Assembly (NCBI GenBank): GCA_947311515.1
Contig: CAMZLB010000052.1
Location: 1-35,428 of the forward strand
Source of the DNA: Candidatus Moraniibacteriota bacterium
GTDB taxonomy: Bacteria > Patescibacteriota > Minisyncoccia > Moranbacterales > GCA-2747515
Length of the DNA stretch: 35,428 nucleotides
Reading direction: 5' to 3'
The notes beneath the pieces are model-generated. The model ran no database searches and was not told the origin of the DNA. It was given only the letters and a program-made list of their open reading frames with translations. This document shows positions 23,098-28,200 of the stretch, piece after piece; within the stretch, counting starts at the first letter, position 1; every line of letters starts with the position of its first letter. A program made the position numbers and the translations under genes.

Positions 23098-25257
23098 ATG
23101 ACAAATTTACTTAAAGGACTAAATACACCACAAAAAGATGCTGTAAAAGCAAATAAGGGTCCTTTTTTGGTTATCGCTGGTGCAGGTTCAGGTAAGACAA
23201 CAGCTCTTACAAGAAGAGTTGCTTATTTGATATTGGAGAGAAAAGTATATCCGCACAATATATTAGCAGTGACTTTTACAAATAAAGCTGCAAAGGAAAT
23301 GAAGCAGAGAATCTCAGGTTTAATTGGAATCGATAATATGGTTCCTCTTGTAGGCACATTTCATAGTGTGTGTGTAAAAATTTTGAGAAATAACATATCA
23401 AATTTACATTATAGTTCAGATTTCACTATTTTAGATACTCAAGATACACAAGCTATAATAAGAAAGAAAATAAAAGAACTTAAATTACCATCAAAAAAAA
23501 TTACACCAAGAATGGTATTGAATAAAATATCTCATGCAAAGAATTTATTACTAACTCCAAAAGACATAGCGTTACAAGTTAAAGATAACTATGATAAAGA
23601 CATAGCAAATATTTACGATAAATATCAAGAATATCTATTTAAATCAAATTCTTTGGATTTTGATGATTTAATTAGATTAACGATTAAATTATTTAAACAG
23701 TTTCCAGAAATTTTAGAATCTTATCAAGAACGGTTTAAATACATATTAGTAGATGAGTATCAAGATACTAATTATGCACAATATACTTTTATAAATTTAC
23801 TTGCTAAAAATCATAAAAATATATTTGTAGTTGGTGATGATTGGCAAAGTATTTATAAATGGAGGGGTGCAGATATTAATAATATTTTAGATTTTGAAAA
23901 AGATTATTCAGGAGCTAAAATTATCAAACTTGAGCAAAATTATAGATCTACTCAAATTATATTAGATGCCGCATACTATGTAATAAAAGAAAATAATAAA
24001 AGAACAAATAAAAAAATTTGGACGAATCAAAGGGAGGGTCAAAAAATTATAGTTTTTGAAGCAAGTAATGAATCTCAAGAAGCTGCTTATATTTCAAAAA
24101 AAATATTGGAATATGTGGAAGATAATAAAAAAACATTTAATGATTTTGTTGTTCTATATAGAACAAATGCACAATCCAGAGTTATAGAGGAATATTTTTT
24201 AAAAAATGATATACCATATAGAATTGTGGGCGGTATTAAATTTTATGCTCGTAAAGAGATAAAAGATATTATTGCATATTTAAAATTAATAAAAAATCCA
24301 TATGATCAAACATCTCTTTTTCGTATTTTGGATGCAGTAAAAATAGGAATAGGGGAAAAAACTATAAATAAATGGATTATAGGAGCTAATAGATATAATA
24401 TGGATTTTATAACTTTTGCATTAAGTGAAAAGTTGGGAGAGTTTATAACAGTAAGTAGCAGAAGACAAAAAATAAAATATTTTTCACTCTTTATAAGAGA
24501 TATTAAAAAAAATAATATAGATTTAGATGTGTCTTTATTAATTCGTCATGTCTATGATAATAGTGGTTATAAATCTATCATAATGGATGGTACAGAAGAG
24601 GGAAATATTCGAGATGAAAATATCAAAGAATTATTATCTGTTTCTTCTAAGTATAAAAATATGGATAATCAACTCAATTTATTTTTAGAAGAAGTGGCAT
24701 TAGCTAGTGATTCAGATACTATTTTGGAAAATTTAGATAATGTTCATCTTATGACGTTACATAGTGCAAAAGGATTGGAGTTTCCTATAGTATTCATAAT
24801 AGGATTAGAAGAAGGATTACTTCCGCATGTAAATTCTATAAAAAATGAATCTGAGTTAGAAGAAGAAAGAAGGTTAATGTATGTGGGTATCACAAGAGCT
24901 AAAGAAGAAGTATTTTTATTATATGCTAACCAAAGAATGTTATTTGGTAACTTTAAGATAAATCTACCAAGTAGATTTATAAATGACATACCAAGTAAGT
25001 TGATAGAAAAAGATATAGCAAGAGGCTCTATGATTTTACTTGGTAATACAAAGAAAAAAGAAAGCAATATTAAGGATATTTATAAAATCCCAAAGGAAAA
25101 CCAAACTAACATAAAAAAAGGAATGAAGGTTATACATGCACAATTCGGTATAGGAGTTGTTCTTTATGTTGATAAGGATACCGTAAGTATCATATTTAAA
25201 GGTAAGGCAATCAAAAAGTTATCCAGGACTTATGCACAACTTACAATTGCTGAATAG
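23098..25257 (+). CDS. UvrD/PcrA-type superfamily 1 DNA helicase
   Basis: LNTPQKDAVKANKGPFLVIAGAGSGKTTALTRRVAYL, VDEYQDTNYAQY, GDDWQSIYKWRGAD, LMTLHSAKGLEFPIVFIIGLEEGLLPH. Confidence 0.96.
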   Translation: MTNLLKGLNTPQKDAVKANKGPFLVIAGAGSGKTTALTRRVAYLILERKVYPHNILAVTFTNKAAKEMKQRISGLIGIDNMVPLVGTFHSVCVKILRNNISNLHYSSDFTILDTQDTQAIIRKKIKELKLPSKKITPRMVLNKISHAKNLLLTPKDIALQVKDNYDKDIANIYDKYQEYLFKSNSLDFDDLIRLTIKLFKQFPEILESYQERFKYILVDEYQDTNYAQYTFINLLAKNHKNIFVVGDDWQSIYKWRGADINNILDFEKDYSGAKIIKLEQNYRSTQIILDAAYYVIKENNKRTNKKIWTNQREGQKIIVFEASNESQEAAYISKKILEYVEDNKKTFNDFVVLYRTNAQSRVIEEYFLKNDIPYRIVGGIKFYARKEIKDIIAYLKLIKNPYDQTSLFRILDAVKIGIGEKTINKWIIGANRYNMDFITFALSEKLGEFITVSSRRQKIKYFSLFIRDIKKNNIDLDVSLLIRHVYDNSGYKSIIMDGTEEGNIRDENIKELLSVSSKYKNMDNQLNLFLEEVALASDSDTILENLDNVHLMTLHSAKGLEFPIVFIIGLEEGLLPHVNSIKNESELEEERRLMYVGITRAKEEVFLLYANQRMLFGNFKINLPSRFINDIPSKLIEKDIARGSMILLGNTKKKESNIKDIYKIPKENQTNIKKGMKVIHAQFGIGVVLYVDKDTVSIIFKGKAIKKLSRTYAQLTIAE

Positions 25258-25439: not shown

Positions 25440-25468
25440 TTGACCTTAATTATTTTACTTGGTATAAT
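25440..25468 (+). promoter_or_regulatory. near-consensus sigma70 promoter
   Basis: TTGACC 25440-25445, 17-bp spacer, TATAAT 25463-25468; no ORF follows. Confidence 0.75.
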
Positions 25469-25474
25469 GTATTT

Positions 25475-25700
25475 AGAAGGTTGAGGGAGAAGAGAAAAAA
25501 ACAGCCAAAGTTATGCACATTAACATCATTGCTACTGACAGAGGAAGAGTTTCCAATCATATTTTCCCCCTATTTATGATTGGAAACCCTTCCCCTGTCT
25601 CATAAGAGAGGTTAACATACCACTCTTCGTGAAGAATTTTCTTAAGAGGTTAGCTAGTCAGTTGTGACTACTAAATCATAAGATATTCCTAGTCTTCACA
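25475..25700 (+). ncRNA. candidate structured non-coding RNA (~220 nt), family unassigned
   Basis: Strong promoter upstream; 24-nt stem 25537-25560/25576-25599 with only 2 A-C mismatches; hairpin 25655-25660/25665-25670; closing stem 25476-25485/25688-25697; no ORF. Confidence 0.6.
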
Positions 25701-25722
25701 AACAAAAAAACAAAAATAAAAA

Positions 25723-25760
25723 TATATCACTTATTTTTTCTAAAAAAAATAAGTGATATA
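25723..25760. terminator. perfect 17-bp inverted repeat, possible AT-rich terminator of the candidate ncRNA
   Basis: tatatcacttatttttt-ctaa-aaaaaataagtgatata. Confidence 0.5.
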
Positions 25761-25823
25761 CTAATGAAATAAAAACAAAAAATAAAAGAGTTTAGAAATA
25801 ATAGTTCTTTCAGATAAAAAAAG

Positions 25824-26160
25824 GGGGGCTAAATGCCATGAGACGGAGGTAAGAAGTAGCAATAGGAATATGCGAAAAATTAACAACAAGCATGCAAAAA
25901 AGAGGCATGTAATAGTATGTACGGAAATCACATATGATTTTCTAAACTAGTATGAATAAATTGAATTGATTGTTTTTTCACCCGGAAATAAGAAGTTTAA
26001 AAAGTTCAAAAAGTTTAAAGAATTTATGTTCGGTGCATACGCACTATGCCGGGCGCTTGCCCATACAACGATTAGGGGCCATTAGCGCCCGGTGAACAAC
26101 CATCCTTAGATATATTTCGAGGAAATGATTCATCGGTAGATATTTGAAGGTGTGTTTTTC
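25824..26160 (+). ncRNA. second candidate structured RNA/DNA element, family unassigned
   Basis: GC-rich island in AT-rich surroundings; stem ccgggcgct/agcgcccgg (26049-26057/26084-26092), hairpin gtgc-atac-gcac, outer gttc/gaac; upstream hairpins catgc..gcatg and aaatca-cata-tgattt. No coding potential seen. Confidence 0.4.
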
Positions 26161-26332
26161 TAAAATGATTTAATTTTTGTTAAATAGGTCATTTATTATT
26201 ATAGGTATAAGTATGCTATACATTATACTATTTATAATTTTTATATAAAAAATCACCAAAGAAAATTGTAAAAAAATAGATATTAGTACAAATATCCTAG
26301 CAAAATTTTCATATTATAGGATATAATTTTTT

Positions 26333-26692
26333 ATGGATAAGTATAAGTTTAAATTATTTAATCTTTGTAAAGTCTAGAATAGAAGATTTCATAAAAGTAA
26401 AGAAAGGTTATTATTTTTTTGCATTGTCTAAATATCGTGGATATATAGAATATAGGCATGTAGATTTTTTGATATGTGATAAAAAAACTAGTTATTGAGT
26501 TAGATGGATACTCTCATAATTTTAAAAAACAGAGATAGTATACTTAATAAAACATACAAAATTGTAAATTTATCAGTTATTCATATTGTAGTGCATGATA
26601 TAAATAATAAAAAGCACTTAGAATATGTTTATGGAAAAATATTCAGATTTAAAGTAGTATCTATTCTTAAATATTTTGAAGATTTCAGTTGA
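26333..26692 (+). pseudogene. frameshifted DUF2726-like (nuclease-fold) gene remnant
   Basis: Conceptual reading across three frameshifts: MDKYKFKLFNLCKV / SRIEDFIKVKKGYYFFALSKYRGYIEYRHVDFLICDKK / LVIELDGYSHNFKKQR / DSILNKTYKIVNLSVIHI...; the 26504-26692 ORF is its 3' fragment. Confidence 0.65.
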
Positions 26693-26718
26693 CATGATAT
26701 TATGTATTTAAGTATACT
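26689..26718 (+). promoter_or_regulatory. putative ilvC promoter
   Basis: TTGACA 26689-26694, 18-bp spacer, TATACT 26713-26718, 30 bp before the ATG. Confidence 0.55.
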
Positions 26719-26748: not shown

Positions 26749-28200
26749 ATGAAAAATAAAATAAAGTCTTCAATTTTTGATATAAAAGATTTAGTTGTTC
26801 CTGGAGAAAATGAACAAATTGTAGTTGGAGGAAGAGATAAGTTTGAAATTGCCATAGAAGCATTAAAAAAAGCTAATATAAAAAAAATTGGAGTAATTGG
26901 TTGGGGATCGCAGGGTCCGGCACAATCTCAAAATTTAAAAGATTCTTTAGATAATACGGATATTGAAGTTACTATAGGACTCAGAAAAGGTAGTTCTTCA
27001 TGGGATAAAGTTGAAGAAGTTGGGCTTAAGGTGGATGAAATGTATAAAGTTTTATCGGAATCAGATTTAAATATCTTACTTATAAGTGATGCAGCTCAGG
27101 CTGATAATTATAAAGAAATATTTAAAAATCTTAAATCAGGTTCAACGCTCGGACTTTCACATGGCTTTTTACTTGGACATTTGCAAAATGTAGGTGATAA
27201 ATTTCCAGATGATATAAATATAATAGGTGTATGTCCAAAAGGCATGGGTCCTTCAGTTAGAAGATTATATGAGCAAGGAAAAGAGGTCAATGGCGCTGGA
27301 ATAAATAGTTCATTTGCTGTTGAAAAAGATATAGATGGAAAAGCTACAGATATAGCACTTGCTTGGTCTATTTTAATAGGGTCTCCTTATATATTTAAAA
27401 CCACACTTGAAGATGAATTTAAATCAGATATTTATGGGGAAAGAAGTATTCTTTTGGGAGCAGTTCATGGAATGGTAGAAGCACTTTATCAAAAAAGAAC
27501 AGTAGAAGAAGATGAAAAAGACGTATATAGAGAGACAGTGGTAAATATAACAGGTCCAATAAGTAGGAAAATATCTAAAGAAGGTATAGAGTCTATTTTT
27601 AAGGAGTTTGAAGGAAATGATGTTTTTTATAAGTCTTTAAATGCTAGTTATAAAGAATGTTATCCATTATTAGAAGAAATATATGATGAGGTATCAAGTG
27701 GTAATGAGATACGAGGTGTTATTTTAGCAGGTAGGAGGAAGCAAATATTTGTTCCTGAGTTAATTGATAAAACTCCAATGTGGAGAGTTGGTGAAGTTGT
27801 TAGGAAGAGTAAAGATAATGGAGATAATTATGAGATAGTTGCGGAAACTTCAGGATTTTATGTGGGCGTAATGATGGCTCAAATTGATGTTCTTAAGAAA
27901 AATAAACATTCTTGGAGTGAAATTGTAAATGAATCTATAATAGAAGCAGTTGATTCACTTAATCCATATATGCACGCAAGAGGCATTGATTATATGGTTG
28001 ATAATTGCTCTAGAACTGCTAGATTAGGCTCTAGAAAATGGGGACCAAGATTTAGGGCATGTATAGAAGTAGCAATCTATGATGTTAAATATGATGAATT
28101 TGATATTGAATTGATAGATAGACTCAGAAACCACGATGTTCATTCAGCTTTAAAATCATGTGGAGAATTGAGACCATCAGTGGATATATTTGTAGAATAG
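26749..28200 (+). CDS. ilvC: ketol-acid reductoisomerase, long (class II, plant-type) form
   Basis: KKIGVIGWGSQGPAQSQNLKDSL, LLISDAAQADNYKEIF, GLSHGFLLGHLQ, VCPKGMGPSVRRLY, YMHARGIDYMVDNCSRTARLGSRKWGPRF. Confidence 0.95.
   Translation: MKNKIKSSIFDIKDLVVPGENEQIVVGGRDKFEIAIEALKKANIKKIGVIGWGSQGPAQSQNLKDSLDNTDIEVTIGLRKGSSSWDKVEEVGLKVDEMYKVLSESDLNILLISDAAQADNYKEIFKNLKSGSTLGLSHGFLLGHLQNVGDKFPDDINIIGVCPKGMGPSVRRLYEQGKEVNGAGINSSFAVEKDIDGKATDIALAWSILIGSPYIFKTTLEDEFKSDIYGERSILLGAVHGMVEALYQKRTVEEDEKDVYRETVVNITGPISRKISKEGIESIFKEFEGNDVFYKSLNASYKECYPLLEEIYDEVSSGNEIRGVILAGRRKQIFVPELIDKTPMWRVGEVVRKSKDNGDNYEIVAETSGFYVGVMMAQIDVLKKNKHSWSEIVNESIIEAVDSLNPYMHARGIDYMVDNCSRTARLGSRKWGPRFRACIEVAIYDVKYDEFDIELIDRLRNHDVHSALKSCGELRPSVDIFVE

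Follow-up and report, generated by a model that had tools for sequence, protein, structure and literature searches.

A conserved candidate structured RNA with competing helices in Candidatus Moraniibacteriota

Background

What occupies the 1.5-kb stretch without a conserved open reading frame (ORF) which separates a UvrD-type helicase gene (23098-25257) from ilvC (26749-28200, named by Pfam) in a draft genome of Candidatus Moraniibacteriota? The window, meaning the whole 35,428-nt stretch of DNA under analysis, is contig C52 of G000, a 1.2-Mb draft genome which is 96% complete. An earlier note on this DNA had proposed an undescribed non-coding RNA of about 220 nt at this place, and the presence, extent and possible role of such an RNA are addressed here. 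It is rare for a new large RNA to prove near-universal across an order, and the earlier cases, tmRNA, 6S, OLE and ROOL, each opened a separate line of work.

The RNA gene and its boundaries

The near-consensus promoter described in the earlier note is present at 25440-25468 (TTGACC-17-TATAAT, extended TG, 11 of 12 matches), and a similar promoter lies 5' of the RNA in 92 of 93 homologs, as against 3.8% of shuffled upstream regions. The absence of an ORF downstream of it also held, in that no conserved one was seen. The length of about 220 nt, in contrast, proved too short. The 226-nt piece 25475-25700 has a fold z of -6.1, with none of 200 shuffles as low, and the full span (25475-26160, 686 nt) reaches -10.1. 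When the loci of relatives are read side by side, sequence conservation extends to about 26159 and elements follow one another in the same order for about 450 nt beyond this piece, which represents the 5' third. With its ends predicted from the promoter and the terminator, the RNA gene would run from about 25475 to about 26159, approximately 685 nt, within a range of about 450-700 nt among members. A simple terminator test is passed by 53 of 88 homologs.

The common architecture of the relatives comprises P1, P2, P3, A-rich linkers, P5, P6, a CACCCGG motif, P8 and P9, with a terminator in most. Their downstream order consists of A-rich linkers (AAAACAAAAATAAAAA), GUUCUUU, a GGC/GCC hairpin, a second hairpin, CAUGUA/UACAUG, CACCCGG, a GC-rich helix and usually a terminator, and the window copy carries every downstream element seen in them. 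Its parts are listed below, with the basis of each in brackets.

25440-25468, + strand: sigma-70-type promoter TTGACC-17-TATAAT with extended TG; predicted transcription start near 25475 (pattern; 92/93 homologs)
25475-26159, + strand: whole RNA gene, about 685 nt, predicted ends (conservation; fold z = -10.1)
25537-25599, + strand: hairpin P1, conserved loop ATTTTCCCCCTATTT at 25561-25575 (covariation)
25537-25549, + strand: strand A, the 5' base of P1, pairs with B (covariation)
25589-25603, + strand: strand B, the 3' base of P1, complementary to A and C (covariation; duplex energies)
25604-25627, + strand: hairpin P2 (sequence; full-span fold; counterparts in relatives)
25629-25699, + strand: P3, closed by 25629-25635/25693-25699 (sequence; position equivalent to P3 of relatives)
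25683-25691, + strand: K1 (AUAUUCCUA), pairs with K2 (covariation)
25699-25722, + strand: first A-rich linker, CAAACAAAAAAACAAAAATAAAAA (conserved in relatives)
25723-25760, + strand: P4, a 17-bp inverted repeat forming an internal stem between the A-rich linkers (95% self-complementary; full-span fold)
25767-25788, + strand: second A-rich linker (relatives)
25804-25810, + strand: conserved GUUCUUU motif (relatives)
25827-25837, + strand: P5, mini-hairpin GGC-UAAAU-GCC (relatives)
25838-25854, + strand: strand C, pairs with B and excludes A-B (covariation; constrained folds)
25859-25873, + strand: P6, containing K2 (UAGGAAUAU, 25863-25871) (covariation)
25915-25935, + strand: hairpin P7 (sequence; counterparts in relatives)
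25979-25985, + strand: CACCCGG motif, CACCC in 46/46 aligned relatives (alignment)
26033-26044, + strand: hairpin P8 (sequence; P8 of relatives)
26048-26093, + strand: helix P9, 26048-26057/26084-26093, inner GCCC/GGGC (covariation; full-span fold)
26101-26159, + strand: terminator-like hairpin, then a U run (sequence; full-span fold; 53/88 homologs pass the test)

Covarying helices and a contact between loops

The compensatory changes in relatives which the earlier note had named as a check were found in P1, P9 and three further pairings, K1-K2, A-B and B-C. The long hairpin with a C-rich loop is P1, whose arms (25537-25561/25575-25599) form 23 pairs within 25 nt and carry two single mismatches. 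Across 72 distinct sequences, 92.4% of the P1 cells are paired and 17 of the 23 pairs show double changes. Double-changed cells amount to 262; shuffling gave 76.5 and sliding the partner no more than 58. Here as for all covariation counts, the shuffle controls leave shared ancestry in place. The loop, AWUUUCCCCCUAUUU, is nearly invariant inside a stem which varies and covaries, although its conservation among these 72 sequences comes partly from their selection by a pattern which took in the loop together with the three pairs beside it. With minor changes, this loop recurs in an unselected DNA search and in divergent copies. In P9, double changes affect 10 of 12 pairs, and the covariation of both helices lies far above the shuffled and slid controls.

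A contact at longer range involves the loops of P3 and P6, which bear matching hexamers. With the motifs picked independently in each loop, 91.8% of the K1-K2 cells are paired in 69 members, and 57 are double-changed, against a shuffled mean of 16.3 and a maximum of 26. Two earlier tests of this pairing, based on the longest complementary run and on the loops of single-sequence folds, gave weak results, since flanking stems and motif classes have letters in common. Pair variants observed include UCUGAC/GUCAGA, UCUGAG/CUCAGA, UCUAAC/GUUAGA, UCUAAG/CUUAGA and CCUAAC/GUUAGG; in the window, AUAUUCCUA (25683-25691) and UAGGAAUAU (25863-25871) form 9 pairs.

These pairings revise the outline originally drawn for the RNA. 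A stem joining its 5' and 3' ends (25476-25485/25688-25697) had been proposed, and it is absent from the minimum-energy fold of the full span. On the comparative evidence, 25683-25691 is used with 25863-25871 and 25693-25699 with 25629-25635, so that the K1-K2 pairing removes the partner of the closing stem. The 17-bp inverted repeat which had been placed after that stem does exist, at 25723-25760, but as the internal stem P4 and not as the 3' end.

Two helices competing for one strand

Strand B is complementary both to A, at the 5' base of P1, and to C, a segment just after P5, with 10.8 positions on average complementary to both. Among 77 distinct sequences, B-A and B-C show 193 and 177 double-changed cells, versus shuffled maxima of 72 and 85. 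The mean duplex energy of B is -18.3 kcal/mol with its own downstream region, -12.6 with those of other members and -11.4 with shuffled ones. In constrained folds, whose energies leave out the loop-loop contact, the A-B form is usually lower than the B-C form, with a median gap of 4.4 kcal/mol and half of the members within 5 kcal/mol. The B-C helix was not recovered in L218 and L222.

A-B being slightly favoured in most members, pairing with C might perhaps be part-time. Judged from sequence comparison, the two helices are read here as a conserved strand exchange, either as a folding step, in which P1 forms first and C invades later, or as a working switch.

Comparison with known RNA families

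An Rfam search, another check that had been proposed, was run at gathering cut-offs (Rfam 15, 4227 models) and gave no match to the RNA in the window or in ten relatives; the window matches only tRNAs elsewhere. A permissive search of the window and six relatives produced only sub-threshold, chance-like matches. The near-matches mir-547, RsaE, rli49 and Six3os1 fall far below their cut-offs and were taken as chance, the RsaE match over the P1 hairpin scoring 23.6 bits where the gathering score is 79. The RNA has in common with RsaE/RoxS (RF01820) an unpaired C-rich motif in a hairpin loop, and differs from it in this low score and in giving no sign of G-rich ribosome-binding-site targets; RsaE is about 110 nt long.

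The earlier note was right in setting aside RNase P and tmRNA, which are found elsewhere in the genome, at G000:C16 (RF00010) and G000:C22 (RF00023). The 6S model RF00013 finds nothing in the region or in the whole genome, and it also misses most of 14 control genomes; the small SRP model RF00169 has no match at the locus or elsewhere in the draft and likewise misses some controls. The lack of both matches in G000 may reflect divergence or a draft gap, and it is not claimed that the RNA replaces 6S or SRP, since both models miss some control genomes. A closed rod reminiscent of 6S, as once envisaged, conflicts with the length of about 685 nt, the multi-domain structure and the lack of an RF00013 match at the locus. 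No 6S-type rod with a central promoter-like bubble was found, the closing stem being contradicted by K1-K2 and P3. What the RNA has in common with 6S is to be stand-alone, chromosomal and equipped with its own promoter.

A closer likeness is offered by OLE, GOLLD and ROOL, which form RNA-only homo-oligomers and whose cryo-EM structures reveal kissing loops and flexible linkers (PMC12286853). The RNA fits such a class of large stand-alone RNAs with a conserved multi-helix fold and kissing loops. Like these three, it is non-coding and hundreds of nucleotides long, with kissing loops, unstructured linkers and numerous conserved helices (PMC12286853). It differs from them in its lack of an Rfam match, the invariant C-rich P1 loop, the A-rich linkers and the three-strand exchange; moreover, it was seen only in Patescibacteria, as a chromosomal single copy and with no genuine copy on viral contigs. 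The raiA motif, or ModT RNA, is likewise a stand-alone, conserved structured RNA from comparative genomics, which acts in trans (PMC11706538), as the present RNA would; unlike it, the present RNA has no Rfam match, is larger and is unrelated in sequence and pairing. No earlier description was found in the literature searched, a scope which left out bioRxiv preprints and most subscription journals, and these could change the result.

Conservation within the order and gene context

A DNA search with the 226-nt piece matched 38 of 57 genomes, its own included, the others matching on the long hairpin. In the order (Candidatus Moraniibacteriota), a covariance model of P1 gave matches in 113 of 132 genomes, covering 62 of 67 genera. 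Each of these genomes has a single site; the second match listed corresponds to the opposite strand of the same palindrome. In the class sample, the P1 model missed five members of the order, four of which were picked up by a model built on the 3' domain, so that one or the other is found in 38 of 39. The earlier proposal of an undescribed non-coding RNA is thereby strongly supported, through compensatory changes, single copy, order-wide conservation and the lack of an Rfam match, and it is close to certain that a real class of structured RNA has been found. Patescibacteria genomes are minimal, and since an RNA of about 450-700 nt is kept in almost all members of the order, it probably does something needed.

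Across the order, one strand usually carries, in succession, pnp, a membrane-protein gene, the RNA, yraN (UPF0102), traR/dksA and lspA, where pnp and lspA were named from sequence features, without a family search. Most members of the order (e.g. L008 and L099) have the membrane protein next to the RNA. The protein is about 350-450 aa long and, judged by eye, combines a disordered N-terminus with a single membrane helix and an outer domain which is conserved; Pfam gave no domain in the one protein tested. It could be a partner of the RNA or merely a neighbour. In the window, the RNA lies between the helicase gene and ilvC, with neighbours which differ from those of most relatives, and it appears that the RNA moved or that its surroundings were rearranged. 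It is nonetheless intact, and this favours a trans-acting RNA.

The DNA separating the RNA from ilvC contains, at 26300-26700, broken reading frames, one of them with KKLVIELDGYSHNFKKQR, which resemble the remnant of a small nuclease-like gene, presumably DUF559-like; a 62-aa ORF at 26504 had no Pfam match.

Proposed role and alternative explanations

Promoter, terminator, single copy, fixed order, many helices, a kissing loop, unpaired A-rich linkers and an invariant loop together make up the pattern of a structural RNA, which argues for a scaffold or an assembly. By analogy with OLE, GOLLD and ROOL, the RNA is probably a stand-alone, single-copy, trans-acting structural RNA with strand exchange, serving as a ribonucleoprotein scaffold or as an RNA-only assembly; that the exchange is also functional within such a scaffold or assembly is plausible and is put forward with some reserve. 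Its own strong promoter would drive transcription, and its own terminator would stop it. P1 would form at once on transcription; strand C, emerging about 250 nt later, would displace A from B and build the long-range B-C helix. In turn, this helix would gather P2-P5 into one domain, to be locked by the pairing of the P3 and P6 loops. The mature RNA would most likely act in trans, with the C-rich P1 loop presented to a partner, and the exchange between A-B and B-C would either act as a checkpoint during folding or switch the RNA from one working state to another. Covariation supplies a secondary structure that can be tested, together with a contact between loops and a possible two-state switch, so that function becomes directly approachable.

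Four other explanations were weighed. C-rich motifs of RsaE/RoxS pair with G-rich sites near mRNA starts, and an antisense regulator could work in the same way, the invariant P1 loop meeting such sites near many mRNAs and the remaining RNA only presenting it. The nearly invariant loop inside a covarying stem and the sub-threshold RsaE match over the hairpin speak for this reading, which is nevertheless unlikely: among 359 genes of the genomes analysed, GGGGG occurs at most 22 nt upstream of the start in 0.3%, not above the 0.8% inside genes, G-rich ribosome binding sites are rare (GGAGG 1.4%), and the kissing loop, the strand exchange and P9 would be left unexplained. A long cis-acting leader of the downstream gene, a riboswitch or attenuator with A-B/B-C as expression switch, would account for the conserved gene order upstream of yraN and traR/dksA, for hairpins directly upstream of traR/dksA in some other classes and for a mutually exclusive helix pair, which is a typical switch feature. 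It is quite unlikely all the same, as the RNA is intact in the window where the downstream gene is not yraN, most copies end in terminator-like hairpins well upstream of yraN, and hundreds of nucleotides separate the conserved parts from the gene that follows.

The nearby traR/dksA of the relatives belongs to a polymerase-binding family, and 6S is apparently absent from the genome by RF00013; both would suit an RNA polymerase decoy which replaces 6S. That absence is weak evidence given the control genomes missed by the model, and a decoy of this kind is improbable for an RNA three to four times the size of 6S, in which P1 is a solid hairpin, the rest is multi-domain and no closed rod with a central promoter-like bubble is seen. 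P1 and P4 are near-palindromic in DNA as well and could act there, as double-stranded or cruciform elements in replication, recombination or transcription end, the RNA being incidental. This is scarcely credible, since the conserved loop is C-rich and strand-specific, the long-range K1-K2 and B-C pairings require a single RNA strand and the strand agrees with that of the promoter in 92 of 93 copies.

Occurrence beyond the order

Nearly all members of one order carry the RNA; elsewhere in Patescibacteria its occurrence is patchy or it goes unrecognised. In the remainder of the class, the P1 model gave one weak match among about 350 genomes and the 3'-domain model several in other orders; CACCC is kept in the diverged copies of class relatives. 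Other classes yielded five clear P1 matches (E 4e-8 to 3e-11), which keep a diverged plan of A-rich linkers, a C-rich or altered P1 loop and a P9-like helix. Among distant copies, a C strand matching B is found in L216, L217 and L234. The hairpin is present at 5 of 30 loci around traR/dksA genes in the phylum, and in other classes it can sit directly upstream of that gene. A hairpin-pattern scan of 85,462 genomes returned genuine matches almost only in records labelled Patescibacteria or unnamed bacteria, with L109 as the sole exception.

A wider reading is offered tentatively, and is on the whole rather doubtful: the RNA might be an ancient RNA machine, a core RNA of the Candidate Phyla Radiation at the level of the phylum, which descends from an early ancestor of the Patescibacteria and has stayed near pnp and traR/dksA. 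It would function through an obligatory three-strand exchange from A-B to B-C, and would have been missed because sequence divergence between orders makes it unrecognisable.

Several matches were rejected. Ten of 86 pattern matches in the genome collection are chance occurrences with no stem; the distant Patescibacteria matches G640, G796 and G307/G276 look false, and G306 is ambiguous. A phage origin was likewise set aside, as six pattern matches on viral contigs have no stem and no genuine viral copy was seen; the phage collection held no match to the window copy.

Three copies from another order of the same class (L210, L211 and L215) keep the A-rich linkers, AUUCUUU..AAAGAAU, CACCC and the P9 helix, and lack a C-rich loop in the first hairpin; the loop would accordingly not be essential class-wide. 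Two records, L109 (titled Micavibrio) and L104 (titled Saccharibacteria), carry the Moranbacteria RNA and are probably mislabelled.
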